The notes beneath the pieces are model-generated. The model made no database searches. It saw nothing but the letters and a program-made list of their open reading frames with translations, and was not told the DNA's origin. Positions 15,712 through 25,402 of a DNA stretch of 64,000 nucleotides are shown here, in pieces; the first letter of the stretch is position 1; each line of letters starts with the position of its first letter. The DNA comes from Lachnospiraceae bacterium (GTDB lineage Bacteria; Bacillota; Clostridia; Lachnospirales; Lachnospiraceae): positions 1-64,000 of the forward strand of contig SVEE01000003.1 of assembly GCA_015057525.1 (NCBI GenBank), read 5' to 3'. The translations under genes and the position numbers were made by a program.

Positions 15712-16947
15712 TTAATATATAATTCTAGTTGCTTTACATGGTGTACTATAGTACATATCAGCAATTATAATACCTGTTCTACTTGTACTAGCATGAACTA
15801 TCTGTCCATTACCAATATAAAGACCAACATGGTCAATGGAACCTGTTCCATGATCATAGAATATAAGGTCTCCTGGCTGAACAGCTGTTAAAGCTACCTC
15901 TGCACCAACTGTTGCCTGTACATCTGCTGTTCTTGGAATTGAATATCCAAAGTCAGCATAAACTCTCATAACAAATCCCGAACAGTCCGCACCTTCTGTT
16001 AAGCTTGTACCACCGTATACATATGGATTACCAACAAACTGCACAGCATAGTTAGCAACCTCTACACCAAGCTCAGAATATGGCACATCTGTTGCAGGTG
16101 GGTTAACAGGAGTTGTATCTGCAGTAGGAGTTTGTGGTTTCTCAACAACCTTTGCATTTACTGTATTATAAGAAATAATAATGTAATCATTCTTTACAAA
16201 TCCTGAAATAGAATCACTTACTTTAATGTTTGTCCACTCAGCACCTATATTAATAATATCGTACTTAGAACCCTGAGAAACATTTGTTAATACATCACTA
16301 GTTTCACTAGCCGCTAATCTTACTCGAAGGGAAGCTGTATTAATTTCAACAACCTGTTTAAGATTAGATGCTGCATACGAAGCTGCATCACTACCAAACT
16401 TCATGAACTCATTCTTGATGTATCCTCTTACTCCACCCGAAGAAACAAGGGACCATTCAGAACCCTTCTCTTCCACTATAACAAGTCCATTATTATCTAT
16501 AGTACCAACAACACTTGAATCAGTACCTGCAGCCTCTCTTATATTTACATAGCTACCAGTAACCACTATAGCTTTATTATCAAAATAATCTGCTGCAACT
16601 GTAAGTGTTGGCTGAACATCATCTTGAGTTTCTTCTGTTGTCTCCTCTGTTGTCTCCTCTGTTGTCTCTTCAGTTGATTCTTCTGTTGTTTCTTCTGTTG
16701 TCTCTTCTGCATCAAGTGGTGTAGACAATGCTGCTGGAAGCGAGTCTGTTGCAACCTGCATCTCGTCCATCTGTCCAAACTCCATTCCACCATTTACTGC
16801 TATATATCTGTCAATAGCTGATGTAATACTAACATTCTCATCGCTATAATATGTTTGCTCTGCCTGTGCTGAATATGTACAAAGCGTTCCCATGAACATA
16901 GTTGTTGTCAAACATAAGGCCAACCATTTCTTAGATGGCTTTATCAT
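15712..16947 (-). CDS. secreted NlpC/P60 peptidoglycan endopeptidase with SH3 domains
   Basis: A 411-residue exported hydrolase. It has a signal peptide with a likely cut after AQA at residue 29 and a Thr/Glu-rich low-complexity stretch at about residues 80-110. Two bacterial SH3 domains follow (GSYVNIREAAGTDSSVVG and NTASLRVRLAASETSDVL), then a Pro/Thr linker and a C-terminal NlpC/P60 domain. The catalytic Cys lies in GADCSGFVMR and the His in DHVGLYIGNGQIVHAS. The family cleaves the D-gamma-Glu to meso-diaminopimelate bond of stem peptides. It is monocistronic, with a consensus promoter and WalR-like repeats at the start site. Confidence 0.93.
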   Translation of the reverse strand: MIKPSKKWLALCLTTTMFMGTLCTYSAQAEQTYYSDENVSITSAIDRYIAVNGGMEFGQMDEMQVATDSLPAALSTPLDAEETTEETTEESTEETTEETTEETTEETQDDVQPTLTVAADYFDNKAIVVTGSYVNIREAAGTDSSVVGTIDNNGLVIVEEKGSEWSLVSSGGVRGYIKNEFMKFGSDAASYAASNLKQVVEINTASLRVRLAASETSDVLTNVSQGSKYDIINIGAEWTNIKVSDSISGFVKNDYIIISYNTVNAKVVEKPQTPTADTTPVNPPATDVPYSELGVEVANYAVQFVGNPYVYGGTSLTEGADCSGFVMRVYADFGYSIPRTADVQATVGAEVALTAVQPGDLIFYDHGTGSIDHVGLYIGNGQIVHASTSRTGIIIADMYYSTPCKATRIIY

Positions 16948-16983: not shown

Positions 16984-17010
16984 GTTACAAAATTGTTACA
17001 ATTTGTTACA
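16984..17010 (-). promoter_or_regulatory. three TGTAAC repeats resembling WalR (YycF) boxes
   Basis: On the minus strand TGTAAC occurs at 17010-17005, 17000-16995 and 16989-16984, with 4-nt and 5-nt spacers. The second pair fits the WalR consensus TGTWAH-N5-TGTWAH exactly. A fourth copy on the opposite strand is at 16966-16971. They begin at the predicted transcription start of the NlpC/P60 gene, a position that would favour repression. Confidence 0.5.
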
Positions 17011-17015
17011 GTCAC

Positions 17016-17044
17016 ATTATAACCATTGTTATTATTATTGTCAA
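17016..17044 (-). promoter_or_regulatory. consensus sigma-A promoter of NlpC/P60 gene
   Basis: On the minus strand TTGACA (17044-17039), a 17-nt spacer and TATAAT (17021-17016) match the consensus at all twelve positions. Confidence 0.85.
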
Positions 17045-17125
17045 CCGATTTAAGGAAATATTTTTGTTTCCACAGTTTTTTCACATTTATCTAATTGAAT
17101 AAATATTAACTTTTTTATATATGTC

Positions 17126-17154
17126 TTGCTTATTTTTATATTATCAGTTAAAAT
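17126..17154 (+). promoter_or_regulatory. sigma-A-like promoter of the yjfB-like gene
   Basis: TTGCTT (17126-17131), 17-nt spacer, TAAAAT (17149-17154), about 40 bp before the start codon. No sigma-D/FliA-type motif was seen. Confidence 0.5.
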
Positions 17155-17194
17155 TAAAGCGTACGAACAAATTAAATTTACAAGGGTGATGGGT

Positions 17195-17380
17195 ATGACT
17201 ATAGGTACAACTAGTTTACTACCGAGTCCAGGCGTTGACACTAAAAACATGAATCCGATAGATATATCAGTCCTGAAAAGGTCATTAAGTTCAGCAGAAA
17301 CGAGTGCGGAAATGCTAACGAGGATGATGGAAACTGGAGTACGCCCCTACATAGGTTCTAATATTGATGTCAGAGTCTAG
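17195..17380 (+). CDS. YjfB-like putative motility protein
   Basis: A 61-residue protein. The central ISVLKRSLSSAETSAEMLTRMM and C-terminal IGSNIDVRV follow the pattern of the YjfB family (helix then a short GxxIDxxV tail), which is sigma-D dependent in B. subtilis but has no known biochemical function. The ATG at 17195 follows AAGGGTGAT; an in-frame ATG two codons earlier (17189) cannot be excluded. It converges on the amidase gene with only 4 bp between the stop codons and has its own promoter and terminator. Confidence 0.65.
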   Translation: MTIGTTSLLPSPGVDTKNMNPIDISVLKRSLSSAETSAEMLTRMMETGVRPYIGSNIDVRV

Positions 17381-17384
17381 CTTT

Positions 17385-18080
17385 TTAGTATGTCGACGTG
17401 ATAGCAGTTGCTACAGCAACTGCTATCTTTTTTTGATAATTTAAATCACACAATTTCTCAGCCTCAGCCGGACAGCTCATAAAACCACATTCTATAATGA
17501 CTCCCGGACAAGTTGTTTTACTTAATATGTAGTAATCGTTTCCTTCTTTAATCTTTCTATCATTTTCAGAATCTACACTTTTAACAAACTCATTTTGGAT
17601 AATCTGCGCCAATTCTTTACTTTCATCAGATGTCCCATTATAAAACACTTGTGCGCCAGAAACACTTGGGTCAGAAAAACTATTTTGATGAATACTTATC
17701 ATGCATGTGGGATTTATATCATTTATTATTTCAGCTCTTTTTTTCATATCAGAACTCTTTTTATTTGTAGCACCATCAACAGCAAGACATATATCTGTGT
17801 CTCTTGTCATAATTACCGTAACACCCATTTTTTCTAATTCTTCCTTCAACAACAATGCAATTTCCAAATTAATGTCCTTCTCCAATACTCCATCCTTACT
17901 AACTTTTCCCGGATCATTACCTCCATGTCCTGGATCAATTACCACCACCAATTTATTTTCCTTTTTTAGATTTTTTCCTTGACCTATATAACCATTCAGA
18001 ATCATTGCACAAAACAAAATCGCAAAGCATATCCATAAATACGAATAATACTTTGCGATTATTTTTTTAATGTTTTTCAT
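17385..18080 (-). CDS. N-acetylmuramoyl-L-alanine amidase (Amidase_3, CwlD-like)
   Basis: Zinc amidase that cuts the lactyl-peptide bond of peptidoglycan. The 231-residue protein has an N-terminal membrane helix (about residues 12-31). The zinc and catalytic motifs are VVIDPGHGGNDPG, MISIHQNS and VIIECGFMS. The size and anchor resemble CwlD, which works in spore cortex formation, but other small amidases are possible. Its last codons (AVAVATAIT) also form the terminator hairpin of the convergent yjfB-like gene. Confidence 0.88.
   Translation of the reverse strand: MKNIKKIIAKYYSYLWICFAILFCAMILNGYIGQGKNLKKENKLVVVIDPGHGGNDPGKVSKDGVLEKDINLEIALLLKEELEKMGVTVIMTRDTDICLAVDGATNKKSSDMKKRAEIINDINPTCMISIHQNSFSDPSVSGAQVFYNGTSDESKELAQIIQNEFVKSVDSENDRKIKEGNDYYILSKTTCPGVIIECGFMSCPAEAEKLCDLNYQKKIAVAVATAITSTY
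17400..17434 (+). terminator. terminator of yjfB-like gene, inside the amidase coding region
   Basis: GATAGCAGTTGC (17400-17411), loop TACA, GCAACTGCTATC (17416-17427), then seven T (17428-17434). The 12-bp stem is perfect and lies in the 3' end of the convergent amidase gene. Confidence 0.85.
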
Positions 18081-18145
18081 ATTAACTTCCTATATATCAT
18101 ATCTATATATAAATATGATTATAGAAAATTAATTATTCAATACTT

Positions 18146-18913
18146 TTAAAACTCTCCACTATCCTTAAGACGTTGACGTTCTTTTTTCATAGCTCCAAGA
18201 ATAATTTCTCGTGCCTCAATAGCTTGAGCTTTAGTAGCTTCCGGAACATCCTTTAACACATAATCCATGCCCATCTTATCATATTTTTCCTTACCCATAT
18301 TGTGGTATGGAAGTACATCTAAAGCCTTAACATGCTTAAACTGAGCTATAAACGTACCTAAACGTTCCAAATACTCAGGAATATATGTTATACCAGGCAC
18401 AAGAACGTGTCTAATCCATATCTCCTTCTCCTGCTCATCAAGAAACTTAAGAAAATCAAATATATTGTCGCAAGGCTGACCAGTAAGTTTTTTATGCTCC
18501 ACTGGGTCAATATGCTTAATATCTAGCATTATCAAATCAGTTGCCTTCATAAGTCTCTCATATTTTGCAAGGATCTCTGGTTTATTTCTTCTAAACTGAA
18601 TTCCTGACGTATCAAGACATGTGTGAATATCCCTTTTCTTAGCTTCCTCAAAAAGTTCTGTCACGAAATCTATCTGTAGTAGTGGTTCTCCACCTGTAAC
18701 AGTAAGACCGCCCCCCTTAAGAAACGGCTTATATCTCTCATAATCATCAAGAATCTCCTCAACTGTCTTAGTCTCGCCACCCTTCATTAACCATGTATCC
18801 GGGTTATGGCAATACATACAACGCATAGGACAACCCTTAACAAACACGACATATCTGATTCCAGGTCCATCCACAGTACCAAACGTCTCTATAGAATGTA
18901 TCATACCTTCCAT
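18146..18913 (-). CDS. pflA: pyruvate formate-lyase activating enzyme
   Basis: Radical-SAM enzyme that abstracts hydrogen from the active-site glycine of pyruvate formate-lyase. The 255-residue protein has the N-terminal IETFGTVDGPGIRYVVFVKG, the cluster motif C-x3-C-x2-C (CPMRCMYCHNP), and GGLTVTGGEPLLQ. Its size matches single-cluster PflA enzymes. It is transcribed from its own promoter, separated from the pfl operon by a large palindromic element. In this genome its substrate glycine is on a separate small protein rather than on the lyase core. Confidence 0.96.
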   Translation of the reverse strand: MEGMIHSIETFGTVDGPGIRYVVFVKGCPMRCMYCHNPDTWLMKGGETKTVEEILDDYERYKPFLKGGGLTVTGGEPLLQIDFVTELFEEAKKRDIHTCLDTSGIQFRRNKPEILAKYERLMKATDLIMLDIKHIDPVEHKKLTGQPCDNIFDFLKFLDEQEKEIWIRHVLVPGITYIPEYLERLGTFIAQFKHVKALDVLPYHNMGKEKYDKMGMDYVLKDVPEATKAQAIEAREIILGAMKKERQRLKDSGEF

Positions 18914-18958
18914 ATTATCTATCTCCTAACGTAAAATTATCTTTCAAAAACCTCTCAT

Positions 18959-18988
18959 ATTATACCACAAAAATCTTTACATATACAA
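18959..18988 (-). promoter_or_regulatory. promoter of pflA (extended -10)
   Basis: On the minus strand TTGTAT (18988-18983), 18-nt spacer, TATAAT (18964-18959) preceded by TGG, an extended -10. It gives a short leader before pflA. Confidence 0.65.
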
Positions 18989-19014
18989 CCAGTCACCAAA
19001 AAATACCAACCTCC

Positions 19015-19427
19015 CTTATATCCCCCATAATGTATTTTACACACCTCCCCTCATTTAATCATAGCTACGAGGAATAATAAAAATAATAAATGTGTTCAAA
19101 AACACGCTCTCGCTTGGACGAAACGCAGCGGTACTAAGTCTTCAGAAACCACCTGTAAGAATAAAAATGTGCACCGAAAACTGTTCTAGAAACGCCGGCA
19201 CTTAACGCACGAAAGATGACACGTTTTTTATGTCATCTTTCGTGCGTTTACGTACCGTTGCGTTTCGCCCAAGCGAGAGCGTGTTTTCGGGCACATTTAT
19301 TATTCTACAGGTGGTTTCTGAAGACTAAGTGCCGGCGTTTCTAGAACAGTTTTTGATACACATTTTTATTCTCGTAGCTATGATTATATGAGGGGAGGGA
19401 GATAGAGTAAATCAGGGGGGATATAAG
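19015..19427. repeat. rearranged palindromic element (modules A-B-C-D-E/E'-B'-C'-D'-A')
   Basis: About 400 bp made almost wholly of inverted repeats. Outer arms A 19044-19071 and A' 19371-19398 differ at 1 of 28 bases, and weaker similarity extends to 19015 and 19427. Inner hairpin E 19204-19221 and E' 19231-19248 is perfect over 18 bp with a 9-nt loop. Between them B (19082-19134) matches B' (19252-19304) at 48 of 53 positions. C (19133-19157) matches C' (19306-19330) at 24 of 25. D (19159-19204) matches D' (19326-19371) at 43 of 46. B, C and D recur in the same order on the right, not reversed, so their pairings cross. No coding region is seen. It could be a MITE-like or REP-like dispersed element. 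Confidence 0.9.
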
Positions 19428-19461
19428 TGGGGTGCTGTAGCTAAGTGGTGGGGAATGAAAA

Positions 19462-19489
19462 AAGGGTACTTCCATTTGGAAGTACCCTT
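19462..19489 (-). terminator. terminator of the pfl operon
   Basis: On the minus strand AAGGGTACTTCC, loop AAAT, GGAAGTACCCTT is followed by TTTTTT. The 12-bp stem is perfect. It ends the core/69-residue/82-residue transcript. Confidence 0.85.
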
Positions 19490-19512
19490 GGTTAGTCTTT
19501 TATTGGTCTAAA

Positions 19513-19761
19513 TTACATAGACTGGATTGACTCATGGAATGTACGTGAGATTACGTCATTCTGCTGCTCCTCTGTTAACTTGATGAAGTTAACTGCGTAT
19601 CCTGATACACGGATAGTGAGCTGTGGATAATTCTCTGGATGCTTCTGAGCATCTAAAAGAGTATCTCTGTTGTATACGTTTACGTTGAGGTGGTGTCCGC
19701 CTTTTTCTGCGTAACCATCTAACATACTTACTAAGTTATCGATCTGCTGTGTACTAGCCAT
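19513..19761 (-). CDS. separate glycyl-radical subunit of pyruvate formate-lyase (GrcA-like)
   Basis: An 82-residue protein corresponding to the C-terminal domain of a normal pyruvate formate-lyase. Residues 7-29 match the linker ([15 protein letters not shown]), then [20 protein letters not shown] and RVSGYAV with the radical glycine at G54, ending in [18 protein letters not shown]. It has its own strong GGAGG site and ATG, so it is made as a free polypeptide. It resembles the standalone GrcA/YfiD cofactor, but here the adjacent lyase core lacks any glycyl domain, so it should be an obligatory subunit rather than a spare part. Confidence 0.9.
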
Positions 19762-19796
19762 TTTAATATCCTCCTAATATAATTATATGATTGGAA

Positions 19797-20006
19797 TTAA
19801 TCCTCAAATGCATCGTCGATACCGTCATGTAATGTAGGCACGGCACATGCAAGGTTACCCTTGGCACAATCTATACAACCCATAGTTTCTAATGAGTTTC
19901 CTTCTTGATCAGGGTCATAGGACACATTAATGTGTCCATGACCTTCTGAAACCATACCATCTAACATTGCTACGATATCATCAACATTATTTAAACCGTT
20001 ATCCAT
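19797..20006 (-). CDS. small Cys-containing paralogue of the glycyl-radical subunit
   Basis: A 69-residue protein between the lyase core and the glycyl subunit. Residues 8-29 (VDDIVAMLDGM, GHGHINVS) clearly match residues 7-29 of the 82-residue neighbour ([19 protein letters not shown]). The RVSGYAV loop is absent. Its second half carries C44-x2-C47-x6-C54 (CIDCAKGNLAC) and an acidic end. It has its own start preceded by AAAGGATGG, 18 bp after the core stop. The shared linker suggests it docks on the lyase core; the cysteines could bind metal, form a disulfide or act in repair. Function unknown. Confidence 0.75.
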   Translation of the reverse strand: MDNGLNNVDDIVAMLDGMVSEGHGHINVSYDPDQEGNSLETMGCIDCAKGNLACAVPTLHDGIDDAFED

Positions 20007-20023
20007 CTAAACCATCCTTTAAA

Positions 20024-22078
20024 TTAGTCAAGCTTAAGATCAACGTCAAGGTCACCAGCGAATACCTGGTCTTCCTTACCAAGTGCTCCAGGGATGATAG
20101 AGAATGTATTTGAAATACCATCCTGTGAATCCATGAATGGAAGCTTTGCTACTGATGAGAGTGAAGCTAACGCACCGTTAGTATCTCTCTTGTGCATTGG
20201 GTTAGCACCAGGAGCGAATGGCTGTCCGTGCTTTCTACCACATGGAGTATCACCTGTGTTCTTACCGTAAGTTACGTTTGAAGTAATTGTAAGAACTGAC
20301 ATTGTTGGGAATCCATCTCTGTATACGTGATGCTTTCTGATCTTGTTCATGAATGTTGAAACAAGGTCAGCTGCGATTGAGTCAACTCTGTCATCGTTGT
20401 TACCATACTTAGGGAAATCTCCCTCAGTCTCATAGCTAACTACGATACCCTGCTCGTTTCTTACTGTCTTAACCTTAGCATACTTGATAGCTGAAAGTGA
20501 GTCAGCTACAACTGAAAGACCTGCAACACCTGTTGCGAAGTATCTTCTAACATCTCTGTCATGAAGAGCCATCTGAATTCTCTCGTATGCATATTTATCA
20601 TGCATGTAGTGGATGATGTTAAGCGCGCTTACATATACACGTGCTAACCACTCCATCATATCATCATATTTTTCCATAACCTCATCAAAGTCAAGGTACT
20701 CTGATGTAATTGGTCTATACTTAGGACCTACCTGTACACCTGTACACTCATCAACACCACCGTTGATAGCATAAAGGAGACATTTTGCAAGGTTAGCTCT
20801 AGCTCCGAAGAACTGCATTTCCTTACCAACTCTCATTGAAGATACACAACAAGCGATTGCGTAATCATCACCATGAGTTACTCTCATTAAGTCATCATTC
20901 TCATACTGGATAGATGAAGACTTGATAGACATCTTAGCACAGTACTGCTTCCAGTTGATTGGAAGTCTTGTAGACCAGAGAACTGTTAAGTTTGGCTCTG
21001 GAGCTGCACCTAAGTTGTCAAGTGTGTGAAGATATCTGAATGACATCTTTGTTACAAGTGGACGGCCATCAATACCAACACCACCAAGTGACTCAGTTAC
21101 CCATACTGGATCTCCTGAGAATAACTGATTGTACTCTGGAGTACGAGCAAACTTAACAATACGAAGCTTCATAATGAAGTGATCGATAAACTCCTGAATC
21201 TGCTCCTCTGTAAATGTACCGTTAGCTAAATCTCTCTCTGCGTAGCAATCTAAGAATGTAGAAGTACGTCCAAGTGACATTGCTGCACCGTTCTGCTCCT
21301 TAACTGCTCCGAGGTATCCAAAGTAAACTGCCTGAATAGCTTCCTTTACGTTAGTAGCTGGCTTAGAAATATCAATTCCGTAAGCTGCTGCCATCTGCTT
21401 TAACTCACCAAGAGCTCTGATCTGCTCAGAAATCTCTTCTCTTAATCTGATTACGTGATCTGTATATACGTTACCGAAAGAATCCTTCTGTTTCTTCTTA
21501 TCAGCAACTAAGAAATCAATACCGTAAAGAGCTACTCTTCTGTAGTCACCGATGATACGGCCACGTCCGTAAGCATCTGGAAGTCCTGTAATGATGTGGT
21601 TTGTACGACATTTTCTGATTTCTTCATCATAAACATCGAATACACCTGCGTTATGAGTCTTTCTGTGTGTAGTGAAGAACTCAACAACTTCTGGGTCTAC
21701 TTTATAACCATTGTCTTCGCAAGCCTTCATAGCCATACGAATACCACCGTATACATTCATTCCTCTCTTGAAAGGCTTATCAGTCTGAACACCAACGATT
21801 GTCTCTTTATCCTTATCGAGGTAACCTGCACCGTGTGAAGTAAGAGTTGAAACAACCTTAGTATCCATATCAAGAACACCGCCTGCTTCTCTTTCCTTCT
21901 TAGAAAGGTCAAGTACCATCTGCCATAAATCCTTAGTATTCTGAGTTGGCTCTGCTAAGAAAGAATCATCTCCCTCATATGGGTGATAGTTCTTCTGAAT
22001 GAAATCTCTAACCTCGATTTCTTTCTGCCACTTACCGCCTACAAAGCCGTTCCAGCCTTCTGCTTCCATCTTAAACAT
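20024..22078 (-). CDS. pyruvate formate-lyase core lacking the glycyl-radical domain
   Basis: Converts pyruvate and CoA to acetyl-CoA and formate. The catalytic cysteine pair is present in IACCVSSM, and the family motifs [27 protein letters not shown] and [12 protein letters not shown] are intact. The ATG at 22078 (MFKMEAEGW) follows AAGGAGGAG. The chain stops after 684 residues, a dozen residues beyond ALGKED, whereas full-length enzymes of about 750-760 residues continue into the linker and glycyl domain. A clean stop, a new ribosome binding site and separate starts downstream argue against a sequencing frameshift. First gene of a three-gene operon. Confidence 0.95.
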
Positions 22079-22216
22079 TGTAAAAAACTCCTCCTTTTTT
22101 CTATCCACACGACGTACCAATGCGGATTTATATTACTTTAAAAATAAGTATCACTTAACTGTGGAAATCTATGATTTTTATGTTTCAAAAATCATCTTGT
22201 TTCCTACTGTGATTAT

Positions 22217-22245
22217 ATTATAATTTTAAATTGTATACACGTCAA
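22217..22245 (-). promoter_or_regulatory. promoter of the pfl operon with TGTATACA in the spacer
   Basis: On the minus strand TTGACG (22245-22240), 17-nt spacer, TATAAT (22222-22217). The palindrome TGTATACA (22232-22239) occupies the spacer next to the -35 box, as an operator would. Confidence 0.75.
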
Positions 22246-22277
22246 CGAATTACGAGCAAATTTTTGTACTTTTTTCG

Positions 22278-22312
22278 ATACACAGATTGTATACAGTATA
22301 CAATCTGTGTAT
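22278..22312. promoter_or_regulatory. 35-bp perfect palindrome upstream of the pfl promoter
   Basis: Arms of 17 bp (22278-22294 and 22296-22312) flank one central base. The core TTGTATAC-A-GTATACAA repeats the GTATAC found in the pfl promoter spacer. It begins 10 bp after the stop of the kinase gene, but no T run follows on either strand, so an operator is likelier than a terminator. Confidence 0.7.
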
Positions 22313-22322
22313 TCTTAAAAAT

Positions 22323-24968
22323 TTACTTATCAATCAAATAATTGTATATATATTCATCGTTCTCAAGTAACATTGACGTAGCCGACATATCTCTCCAGAA
22401 TGAGCAGTCTGTTATGAAATATTCTCCTGAACTATCAGGTTCTGCATAAAATTCTGCTCTTACGCAACACTCATCTGTTGGATAAAACACCTCAAACAAT
22501 ACATAACCATCATATTCTGTATATGCTTTGTAATTTTCCGATATATCCCAGAATAAATCCTGAACATCATAAAGTGAATCACCTATTGTTACATTGCCTG
22601 GCATTATCATTTCATCTATTTCTGTTCCAATCGGTGCATAAATATAGTCTACATAAAGATTCTCTAGACCTACGTTATGTATTGAATAATTATTGATATA
22701 TACATACATAATAGTATCGCCATTAGACATTGTTGTGTACATCTGCTCACATGGCCTCAATGTATCTACTTCATCTACAAAACTCCAACCATTTGCAATA
22801 AGAACAGACACCGGAATAGGAACCTTATAGTTAGTTCCTAACAGGCTAACTACGCTATCAAATCTATCTACTGTTGCCTCTGGTGCTTCATAAGAGGAAA
22901 GCTGCGGAAGCGTATCTACATATTCTGTGCTAGGAAAAACTTCTGCTCCATCTGGTGCCTCAAGGCAACAGTAAAGTACACTTTTACAGCTACCATCTTC
23001 ATCATCATATCCAAATTCAATAAATCCATTGCCAGAACCTAAATATATCTTCTTATAATCAAAATCATCAATAACATCAGGCTCTCCATATATTGCTTCT
23101 ATTTCTGCCATACTTGAAGATGGAGTTGAACCATTCATATCAAAACGTGGACCAGCGGGAAGCTCAATGTAATATTCTGACTCATAACTGTAATGCCAAA
23201 AATCAGCATATCTTATTCCTATTACATGGCATTCATCTGCAGTTTTAGCTTCCGATGAAAAATTTGCAATTAACAATCCATAATCTGCGTTATCATCCAT
23301 GCAGGTAATTTCTCTAATTTCCCCACTTCCTAAAGTGAATTTTTCACCATTAGATTCCCAACCGTTATTTATCCATTCAGTATAAGTCATAGGGAACTGG
23401 TATATATCTCCACCAATGGAAACCTTAAATTCTTCCCAGTTTGAACCTAATTCGGCATTGTATTCAATTGCTGGTTCCTCTTCAGTAGAAGCCTCCGTAG
23501 TTGGCGCCTCTGTAGTAGGTGCTTCTGTTACATCCTGTTCATCATCATCTCTGCCTTGTGTTGATTCCGCAACTTCTCTTGTAGATTTATCATCATCCTT
23601 CTTAGATGAATTTATTGCAACAACCGCAATTACACCAACAACAAGTATCCCTACAATAACTAAAATTAATGGTAAGAAACTTGTTCTCTTTGGCTCATTA
23701 TACCTTTGATTATTTGCTTGTGCAGGATTTGCATTCTGAAAACTCATTTGATTCTGAGCTGTATTAGCTGTTCCCCAAGCTGGTGCCTGTGGTGTAACTT
23801 GTCCCTGCATAGGCTGATTAACAAGAACTGTATTTCCACTTTGAGGATGACCTGTATAGCCAGCCTGAGAACTCATAGGCTGAGTCTGTTGCACACCAGT
23901 AAATCCTGTCTGAGACTGTACATTATAGCCGGCCTGTCCCACAGCATTAGCATTTAACAAAACTGTTGCCTGTTCGGAAACATCATCTGTGGTTGCTCCG
24001 TTATACAAAGCATCCTTTAACTGACCTAAATTCTGATATCTATCCTCAATACGTGGTGCAAGTCCCTTATTTAATACTCTTTCTGTATTTGGGGAAATGC
24101 TAATACCACATGCAGATGGTGACACGTATGTATCTTCCGACATTCTTTCTATGCTGTTTGGTGGTATATTTCCTGTTAACATCTTATACATAGTTGCACA
24201 AAGGCTATATACATCTGTCCATGGTCCTTGTTTACCCTTACCATAGTACTGTTCTTGTGGTGCATATCCATGCTTTAATATAACAGTATATGTTTGGTCT
24301 CCTTCTAACGACTGTCCACGAACCGATCCAAAGTCAATAAGCTTAATCTTACCGTCTTTACCAACCATTATGTTGTCAGGGCTTATATCTCTGTGAACCA
24401 TACCCTTTTCATGAACTTGCTGTAAAGACTCTATAATCGGTTTCATATGAGAAAGAACTTCCGCCTCACTCATCTTTCCACCCAAATTATTTAAATGGGC
24501 TTTTAGTGTTATTCCATCTACATACTCCATAACCATATACGCAGTCTCATTGGCATAGAAAAAGTCCTTAACTGATACAATACCTGGAAGGTTATAAAAT
24601 TTAGACAAATTCTTAGCTTCATCCACATATCTCTTTAAACCTTTATCGTACATGTCTTGGTTTGAGCCAGTTACAGATATATTAGTTGTAGTCTCCTTTG
24701 TTGTATCTCTAAAAACAAAGGCTCCTGGATAATACTCCTTAATCGCTATAAGCGTCTCAAGATTCATGTCCCAGCCAAGATATGTGATTCCAAATCCTCC
24801 CATACCTAATGTACGGCCAAGCATGTATTTCCCTTCCAAAATAGTGAAAGGTGGTAAAGCGTTTTCAGGCATTTTGTAGCCTTCTATATTAAAGCCACAG
24901 TGTCCGCACACTGCCTCACCACTATGTGGTTTAAAACAGTTAGGACATTTGTCAAAACGTTCTATCAT
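22323..24968 (-). CDS. Zn-ribbon Ser/Thr protein kinase with membrane anchor and extracytoplasmic domain
   Basis: An 881-residue Hanks-type kinase. It has an N-terminal zinc ribbon (C8, C11, C21, C24) and a kinase domain at about residues 48-320 with the glycine loop GRTLGMGGFG, the ATP lysine in IAIKEYYP, HRDISPDN and DFGSVRG. A Gln/Pro-rich linker of about 100 residues leads to one membrane helix (LPLILVIVGILVVGVIAVVAI) and a Thr/Glu stretch, then about 380 extracytoplasmic residues. The outer part contains two similar segments (SNWEEFKVSIGG..YQFPM and FDSVVSLLGTNYKVPIPVS). No PASTA repeats are seen. The ATG at 24968 follows GGAGG. Ligand and targets are unknown. Confidence 0.9.
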   Translation of the reverse strand: MIERFDKCPNCFKPHSGEAVCGHCGFNIEGYKMPENALPPFTILEGKYMLGRTLGMGGFGITYLGWDMNLETLIAIKEYYPGAFVFRDTTKETTTNISVTGSNQDMYDKGLKRYVDEAKNLSKFYNLPGIVSVKDFFYANETAYMVMEYVDGITLKAHLNNLGGKMSEAEVLSHMKPIIESLQQVHEKGMVHRDISPDNIMVGKDGKIKLIDFGSVRGQSLEGDQTYTVILKHGYAPQEQYYGKGKQGPWTDVYSLCATMYKMLTGNIPPNSIERMSEDTYVSPSACGISISPNTERVLNKGLAPRIEDRYQNLGQLKDALYNGATTDDVSEQATVLLNANAVGQAGYNVQSQTGFTGVQQTQPMSSQAGYTGHPQSGNTVLVNQPMQGQVTPQAPAWGTANTAQNQMSFQNANPAQANNQRYNEPKRTSFLPLILVIVGILVVGVIAVVAINSSKKDDDKSTREVAESTQGRDDDEQDVTEAPTTEAPTTEASTEEEPAIEYNAELGSNWEEFKVSIGGDIYQFPMTYTEWINNGWESNGEKFTLGSGEIREITCMDDNADYGLLIANFSSEAKTADECHVIGIRYADFWHYSYESEYYIELPAGPRFDMNGSTPSSSMAEIEAIYGEPDVIDDFDYKKIYLGSGNGFIEFGYDDEDGSCKSVLYCCLEAPDGAEVFPSTEYVDTLPQLSSYEAPEATVDRFDSVVSLLGTNYKVPIPVSVLIANGWSFVDEVDTLRPCEQMYTTMSNGDTIMYVYINNYSIHNVGLENLYVDYIYAPIGTEIDEMIMPGNVTIGDSLYDVQDLFWDISENYKAYTEYDGYVLFEVFYPTDECCVRAEFYAEPDSSGEYFITDCSFWRDMSATSMLLENDEYIYNYLIDK

Positions 24969-25186: not shown

Positions 25187-25402
25187 ATGGCAAAGCAAGT
25201 AACAAAAAATATGTTAATTCATGAGATAATCGAAGTTGATCCAGGTAATGCAGCAATTCTTATGGCTTCAGGTATGCACTGTGTTGGTTGCCCATCAGCA
25301 GCAATGGAATCATTAGAAGAAGCTTGTATGGTGCATGGAATGGACGTGGATGAAGTAATCACATCTATCAACGACTATTTAAGCAAAAAAGAAGCTAATT
25401 AA
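25187..25402 (+). CDS. DUF1858 redox-disulfide domain protein
   Basis: A 71-residue protein of the DUF1858 family. The pattern IHEIIEVDPGNAAILMASGMHCVGCPSA contains the C-x2-C pair (C-V-G-C) typical of these small domains, which often accompany hybrid-cluster proteins. The exact role is unknown. It has a strong AAGGAGG site and a plausible promoter (TAGACA, 18-nt spacer, TATACT) and is followed 36 bp later by a membrane-protein gene. Confidence 0.9.
   Translation: MAKQVTKNMLIHEIIEVDPGNAAILMASGMHCVGCPSAAMESLEEACMVHGMDVDEVITSINDYLSKKEAN

Follow-up and report, generated by a model that had tools for sequence, protein, structure and literature searches.

We report here a pyruvate formate-lyase (PFL) that appears to be made in separate parts. 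It is encoded in the window, by which we mean the whole analyzed stretch of 64,000 nucleotides from a Lachnospiraceae bacterium (contig SVEE01000003.1). In many gut anaerobes, PFL has an important role in fermentation. In the window, its catalytic core and its glycyl radical domain lie on two genes, the latter encoding a protein of the family GrcA3, and a small third gene, which we call MID, stands between them. It is very probable that the radical subunit of this PFL is both separate and obligatory. Furthermore, with a probability of roughly 70%, we propose an obligatory multi-part PFL in which a cysteine element, located on MID or on a tail of the core, helps to seat and activate GrcA3.

Core and radical subunit lie on separate genes

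The locus and its parts are as follows.

22217-22245, minus strand: promoter-like TTGACG-17-TATAAT upstream of the core gene (consensus match only)
20024-22078, minus strand: PFL core subunit, 684 residues, with the Cys-Cys pair and without the glycyl domain (TIGR01255; PF02901 over its full length)
19797-20006, minus strand: MID, third gene of 69 residues, between core and GrcA3 (matches in 39 of 150 family genomes)
19513-19761, minus strand: GrcA3, glycyl radical subunit of 82 residues (NF038360; PF01228 positions 50-106)
19462-19489, minus strand: terminator-like hairpin with a 12-bp stem, a loop of 4 and a T run (z -4.35)
18146-18913, minus strand: PflA, radical S-adenosylmethionine activase, downstream of the hairpin (TIGR02493, 293.6 bits, cut-off 231.75)

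Transcription on the minus strand runs through core, MID, GrcA3, hairpin and PflA in this order, and 19513-22078 takes in the first three genes, which would share one transcript ending at the hairpin. Promoter-like consensus matches occur near the chance rate overall (19 found against a mean of 16.6 in shuffles), and no RNA families were found in 17000-24000. AGGAGG precedes the ATG of the core, and TAGGAGG lies upstream of GrcA3. An earlier note on this DNA had described a two-gene layout that included an 82-residue protein with its own GGAGG site and G54 in the motif RVSGYAV. This protein is confirmed and the coordinates hold, but the 69-residue gene between the two had been overlooked.

The core carries the catalytic cysteine pair (IACCVSSM). 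It lacks the glycyl domain, as the earlier note had it, but does not stop just after ALGKED, extending 14 residues further to its C-terminus. The core contains positions 3-647 of 647 of PF02901 and positions 1-50 of 106 of PF01228, and the latter domain continues on GrcA3. Against TIGR01255, the core alone reaches 1103.5 bits (cut-off 994.2) over positions 2-666 of 744; positions 667-744 are missing from it and 665-744 are found on GrcA3, so the glycyl domain is not on the same chain. Similarly, in an alignment with full-length E. coli PFL (1h16), a check that the earlier note had suggested, the core corresponds to residues 8-682 and GrcA3 to residues 683-758, complementary and with zero overlap. 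GrcA3 scores 165.6 bits against NF038360 (cut-off 158) and is thus a member of this family. Its G54 is invariant among 25 aligned GrcA3s and, judged by homology, should be the radical residue. The ratio of nonsynonymous to synonymous substitution rates (dN/dS) of GrcA3 is 0.045-0.174 (13 pairs). Collectively, the Pfam complementarity and the recurrence in other genomes described below bear out the split that had been read from this single locus.

The sole PFL of the assembled genome

The genome of the window measures 2.35 Mb and is 97.3% complete. PF02901 has a single place in the assembly, that of the window, and PF01228 has three, namely the two halves at this locus and a protein on contig C6 that reads as NrdD beside NrdG. 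Based on these matches, no complete PflB is present in the assembled genome; a second, complete enzyme carrying the activity, the possibility that the earlier note had set against its own proposal, was therefore not encountered in this 97.3% complete assembly. Moreover, a stand-alone GrcA3 is accompanied by no fused frame above 100 bits in 57 of the 60 family genomes that have it (the exceptions are G085, G119 and G132; G and L numbers are our handles for genomes and loci).

Since GrcA3 is homologous to GrcA, it might be a spare part as in E. coli, with the truncated core being a degraded gene. However, the core is intact, exceeds the TIGR01255 cut-off and is the sole PFL found; a stand-alone GrcA3 is found in 60 of 150 genera, and the cores that were read end at about the same point; and both GrcA3 and MID are under purifying selection. 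We consider this explanation extremely improbable, and a degraded PFL with a plain YfiD-type spare part was rejected on the grounds of the intact sole core, the recurrence and the purifying selection. A sequencing or assembly artefact was likewise rejected: the same split is found in the congener G236 (L088), and its recurrence across the family and class samples argues against a sequencing error.

Distribution of the split form

To count the split form, NF038360 was run on 150 genomes of the family (one per genus), 299 of the phylum and 291 of the class, and a stand-alone frame shorter than 145 residues and above 150 bits was counted as split. These counts rest on the strongest matches listed, and weaker stand-alone proteins may be missed. 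The survey of Lachnospiraceae that the earlier note had called for returned the split form in 60 of the 150 sampled genera. It was also found in 18 of the 291 class genomes, spread over 9 families (f1, f4, f14, f18, f21, f22, f53, f56 and f70), and in 2 of the 299 phylum genomes, which are the window's genome and its congener. In the phylum sample, three genomes (G568, G635 and G676) have stand-alone frames of 82-110 residues that reach only 70-79 bits to GrcA3 and represent a more distant kind, and three further frames matching GrcA3 have 198-252 residues.

A second stand-alone GrcA3 is present in 8 family genomes, although in G097 the two may be the same gene on two contig ends (distance 0.04). 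Seven such loci were read. In three genera, the second gene is divergent to spoIIIAA (L078, L080 and L083); in L076 and L079, it directly follows a gene for a Crp-type regulator, and in L082 it lies near one. L081 shows neither arrangement.

MID resembles a shortened copy of GrcA3

Among the 39 family genomes matching MID, the gene adjoins GrcA3 in 37; in G002 it is on another contig, and in G006 (67% complete) no GrcA3 was seen. G130 has an additional, unlinked and weaker MID (31 bits to the MID profile), and in G300 MID is placed after GrcA3 (L091). A search of a contig collection with MID patterns matched 546 stretches, of which 537 were confirmed and the best 80 kept. Named carriers include Eubacterium ruminantium ATCC 17233 (L154) and Candidatus Galacturonibacter soehngenii.

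The MID of the window consists of a GrcA3-like N-terminal half without the glycyl loop, followed by GCIDCAKGNLACAVPTLHDGIDD. When a profile of 37 MIDs was compared with GrcA3 by hhalign, MID residues 1-35 aligned (probability 96.1, E 3.5e-9). In addition, 32 of the 37 MIDs match NF038360 at E <= 0.1, the best at 8.6e-7, and this is their best NCBIfam match. Based on this alignment, MID looks like a copy of GrcA3 that has retained the region of the N-terminal helix and strand, lost everything from the glycyl loop onward and acquired a new tail, with the consensus TMGCxDCxxxxLACSVPTLxxGxDD. Four residues are invariant in the 37 sequences (D16, G24, H25 and C47). Exactly three cysteines occur in 79 of 114 MID frames read from stop to stop, and 96 of the 114 contain a C..C pair. 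The dN/dS values, 0.05-0.17 in the 6 pairs out of 12 that had a finite dS, with dS high throughout, indicate purifying selection on MID. No relative of MID better than E 0.21 was found in the PDB, and none better than E 0.01 in Pfam among the 37 members. In viral contigs, 19 pattern matches yielded no relative of MID, the patterns covering close relatives only.

Two variants, L009 and L030, stop right after the first CxxC and do not have the AC-x-VPTL part. Some MID genes have no nearby PFL (L056/L075 and L062/L074); their neighbors appear to encode a CheC-type protein or a MoxR-type ATPase.

A cysteine element on MID or on the core tail

Where a split operon has no MID, the core usually extends into a cysteine-bearing tail, often with the MID motif; examples that match it are CGDMACKVPTLHKGID in L207 and CPDEACRIPNLMEGLD in L016. 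Of the 60 family genera with the split form, 37 have a linked MID, 2 have an unlinked MID, and in the other 21 the core tail carries two or more cysteines. Apart from the first half of GrcA3 and, in G092, the tail of the core, the MID profile hit nothing in the genomes of these 21 genera. The 18 split genomes of the class sample comprise 9 with MID, 6 with a cysteine tail and 3 with neither (G303, G341 and G403).

To compare the tails themselves, cores with identical last 300 residues were removed, leaving 149 split core rows. These include 114 rows with a linked MID (112 with readable tails), 2 N-terminal fragments that were dropped (L097 and L233) and 33 others; one of the 33, L199, has an overlapping MID, so 32 cores are without a linked MID. 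In L097 (G353) and L199, a stop breaks the core frame. Among the 32 cores, the tail has at least two cysteines in 27, MID lies elsewhere in 2 (L073 in G002 and L022 in G130), and 3 have neither (L102 in G303, L235 in G403 and L238 in G341). None of the 112 readable tails of MID-linked cores contains a single Cys, and among fused PFLs (55 rows, 46 readable linkers) 1 of 46 linkers contains Cys. Moreover, in scoring with a profile of the MID tail, which covered 32 core tails (including that of L199 and excluding that of L238, of 3 residues), 18 outscored 198 or more of 200 shuffled versions of the same tail, whereas MID-linked tails and fused linkers reach at most -0.2 bits. Collectively, the cysteine element is nearly but not wholly universal in split PFL.

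Several points weigh against a cysteine element that acts as a shared part of the enzyme. G303, G341, G403 and the virus-borne core L264 have neither MID nor a cysteine tail; with 3 of 18 class genomes and L264 lacking it, the element is not strictly needed. Nine of the 32 tails carry cysteines in another pattern (CACC, GCC) and do not match the motif, and the cysteine linker of the fused enzyme L065 (CGCEEVTC) does not match the MID-tail profile either. The cysteine criterion was chosen after the tails had been seen. The search with MID supplied 70 of the 114 MID-linked rows; selection of the 150 family genomes did not involve MID. A test of MID against tail cysteines on independent pairs provided 3 pairs on the starred branches of the tree and 8 when all branches were used, numbers too small to reach significance; for the 3 starred pairs, the tail was opposite in 1.8 and showed no difference in 1.2 on average (median p 0.5). 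The either-or claim thus rests on the counts and not on this test. In AlphaFold models, the mean predicted local distance difference test score (pLDDT) of MID is 59.1, with a helix at 4-20 and strands at 26-29 and 38-41 of low confidence, and the tail of the L207 core is at about 31; the models of MID and of the L207 core give no indication of where the tail docks. Finally, the complex, its activity and its expression are predictions from genes.

Other functions for the element were weighed. Certain other glycyl radical enzymes are known to have small subunits that bind a metal or an iron-sulfur cluster, and MID or the cysteine tail might do the same, tuning radical storage or oxygen protection. 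The cysteine counts of the MID frames given above fit such a site, but C47 is the one cysteine invariant in the 37-row alignment, the spacing varies, many core tails have only two cysteines, and MID has no sequence relative in the PDB; we regard metal binding as quite unlikely. Alternatively, MID might be a decoy or cap without a radical: its GrcA3-like helix and strand would fill the slot of GrcA3 on a core, perhaps that of the second protomer, where MID would shield the catalytic cysteines, restrict the dimer to one radical and be displaced by GrcA3. This proposal draws on the fact that what MID copies from GrcA3 is the N-terminal half alone, the glycyl loop being absent. In operons lacking MID, however, the core has a cysteine tail and this half is not duplicated, which rules out capping as the function common to both forms. 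In addition, half-site reactivity in vivo has been questioned for E. coli PflB, according to an excerpt of PMC12338860. A decoy role therefore seems rather unlikely to us.

Split, apparent re-fusion and a second branch

In a tree of 127 cores, all split cores except L238 fall into one clade (SH-like approximate likelihood ratio test, SH-aLRT, 99). A tree of 65 cores with better support places all but L238 and the virus-borne L264 in one clade (99/93, with the bootstrap not quite settled). Nested within the split clade are five fused PFLs (L065 and L066-L069), which lie inside starred clades of otherwise split rows in the 65-core tree (51 rows, 99/93; 41 rows, 100/98). At 9 of 9 positions diagnostic of split cores, the five carry the split-type residue. 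The closest relatives of their glycyl domains are GrcA3s or one another, in a poorly resolved comparison of 79 columns. The simplest account of these sequences would be one split followed by two re-fusions. Among the apparent re-fusions, four of five have no cysteine in the linker; L066-L069 have a short linker, and that of L065 is the cysteine-rich one described above.

It is also conceivable that the nested enzymes are not re-fusions and that the split arose several times. Counts of changes do not fix gain against loss of the split, and L238 and L264 make a second split branch. Against this stand the position of the five within the starred clades, the split-core residues that they carry and the closeness of their glycyl domains to GrcA3s or to one another. 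An approximately unbiased (AU) test rejected the split rows as one clade without the five fused rows (p 0.010), a result compatible with re-fusion and with multiple splits alike. On balance, several splits in place of re-fusions appear improbable, and we retain one split with two re-fusions as the simplest account.

The second branch consists of L238 (G341) and L264, whose cores are 83% identical and which have no cysteine element. It is joined only weakly to the fused enzymes (89/72), so a second origin of split PFL is possible. The split core of G341 is probably chromosomal, as its neighbors look like aro genes. In a comparison of PflA, some columns differ between the split and fused sets, differences that phylogeny would explain equally well.

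Virus-borne copies

A search of IMG/VR with the GrcA3 alignment returned 79 places. Of these, 18 (L259-L276) match over almost the whole protein, and the records that carry 12 of the 18 are 67-333 kb long. Two pairs, L263/L276 and L270/L271, each look like one virus found twice. The other 61 places mostly cover residues 20-79 only, as phage-borne relatives of YfiD would. In GenBank, 1539 phage records match GrcA3, mostly those of enterobacterial phages. Viral status was taken from IMG/VR together with single markers (phrog_562 in L266 and phrog_487 in L262), and Terminase_6N (PF03237) was found in none of the 12 virus records.

L264 (1938-4228) encodes an intact split core of 680 residues beside GrcA3. 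The core reaches 1083 bits against TIGR01255, over the cut-off, and its GrcA3 reaches 157.2 bits, just below the NF038360 cut-off of 158. The viral markers on this record are not decisive.

Three further observations concern these records. In L263 and L276 (near 5208 and 4758, respectively), the core adjoins GrcA3 and has an in-frame TGA where the core of the window has Trp. L305 (2005-4231), which is one of the 61 shorter matches and lies on an IMG/VR record of 132 kb, is a fused PFL frame of 742 residues. On a virus record of 333 kb, the GrcA3 of L262 (1806-4796) stands between NrdD and a NrdG-like gene.

Proposed mechanism

The available part of a study of E. coli PFL (PMC8683613) reports that a core of residues 1-695 showed no measurable binding of YfiD and gave 32-fold less radical than a core ending before 734, and that it reached wild-type activity once activated; residues 696-733 were proposed as a recognition element. 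The natural split core does not have this element, and a substitute may therefore be needed. The N-terminal half of MID copies the start of the 696-733 element, and MID or the tail adjoins the junction, in the gene order or in the chain, which points to a role in seating and activation. Taken alone, this role for the cysteine element is a tentative proposal that we rate below an even chance. The earlier note had called the radical subunit obligatory and exchangeable, so that oxygen damage might cost no more than a small protein. The first is supported by the assembled genome, but simple exchangeability is not to be assumed, because truncation of the E. coli core at 695 leaves little binding or activation of YfiD (PMC8683613, same part).

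The multi-part enzyme, predicted to convert pyruvate and CoA into acetyl-CoA and formate, would work as follows. The core would bring the catalytic cysteine pair, GrcA3 would be the radical subunit activated by PflA, and MID would be a third subunit. GrcA3 would complete the barrel of the core and could be exchanged. MID or the tail would dock at the junction of core and GrcA3 in place of the E. coli recognition element 696-733, and once docked it would allow GrcA3 to be seated and activated. The thiols of MID or the tail might make this seating redox-sensitive or quench the radical when oxygen comes. The boldest form of this scheme is a three-part enzyme with a swappable radical subunit, possibly one that a phage can supply, and with MID or the cysteine tail as a thiol gate: under reducing conditions the gate would seat GrcA3 for PflA, and upon exposure to oxygen its cysteines would quench or let go of the radical subunit, limiting the loss to a small part. 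We regard this version as speculative and improbable as a whole.

Oxygen cleavage of the glycyl chain is a known weakness of PFL, as stated in the available part of PMC8683613. With the enzyme in separate parts, the seating of the radical domain, the access of PflA and exchangeability can be tested directly in small operons. Natural controls are available in operons that have MID, a cysteine tail or neither, in the apparent re-fusions and in the virus-borne copies. Carriers may be annotated as having a shortened PFL and a "spare part", which would hide an obligatory subunit and an unnamed third one. More broadly, a separate radical piece and a cysteine piece in many gut bacteria suggest how anaerobes may make and replace a fragile catalyst.

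Elsewhere in the window, 15712-16947 on the minus strand encodes a putative secreted protein with an acidic TTEE repeat and with parts that we take to be SH3-like and NlpC/P60-like. On the plus strand, 25187-25402 encodes a 71-residue protein with a GMHCVGCPSA motif, presumably resembling a DUF1858-type domain.

Comparison with known systems

A natural split PFL was not found named in the titles and abstract openings of the literature searched, whose partial coverage gives no proof of novelty. In the parts available, two gut genome papers touch on PFL only briefly or within a reference (PMC7478625 and PMC9403272), and for a Fusobacterium review autonomous glycyl radical cofactors are solely a means of repair in facultative anaerobes (PMC12288474). 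Within that literature, we did not find descriptions of MID, of the cysteine element on MID or on the core tail, of the apparent re-fusions or of virus-borne split PFL.

Compared with the iron-sulfur small subunits of glycyl radical enzymes, MID finds no match below E 0.21 in the PDB or below E 0.01 in Pfam, and a distant relation is possible. Like GrcA/YfiD (TIGR04365; PDB 6owr), the radical protein of the window is a stand-alone glycyl domain that should be able to complete a PFL core. However, it scores 95.9 bits against that family (cut-off 170) and matches only positions 65-126 of the profile, without the N-terminal half. Furthermore, it is encoded with the core, and no one-chain PFL was found in the assembly for which it could be a spare. 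It is a member of GrcA3 (NF038360, type "exception"), to which MID is only a weak match.

The best PDB matches of the core are 38la and 38lb ("Formate acetyltransferase", 687 and 739 residues). 38la ends in SLGKED, and the tail-less natural cores of G341 and L264 end in SLGKDD and SLGKDED, while residues 692-699 of 38lb are GECDMCEM. GrcA3 matches neither chain at E <= 0.001, and from their sequences both are probably PFL cores without the glycyl domain. The earlier note had held that a stand-alone glycyl protein is known only as the E. coli spare, a view contradicted by the NCBIfam entry for GrcA3 and by these two chains.

In comparison with one-chain PflB (TIGR01255; 1h16), the enzyme of the window has the same core family, the same Cys-Cys pair, the same RVSGYAV glycyl motif and the same partner PflA; it differs in having its glycyl domain on a separate gene and an extra MID gene. 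Collectively, split PFL is not wholly new, since GrcA3 has been named by NCBI and two PDB chains look glycyl-less, and the split is commoner than first thought and partly known by name.

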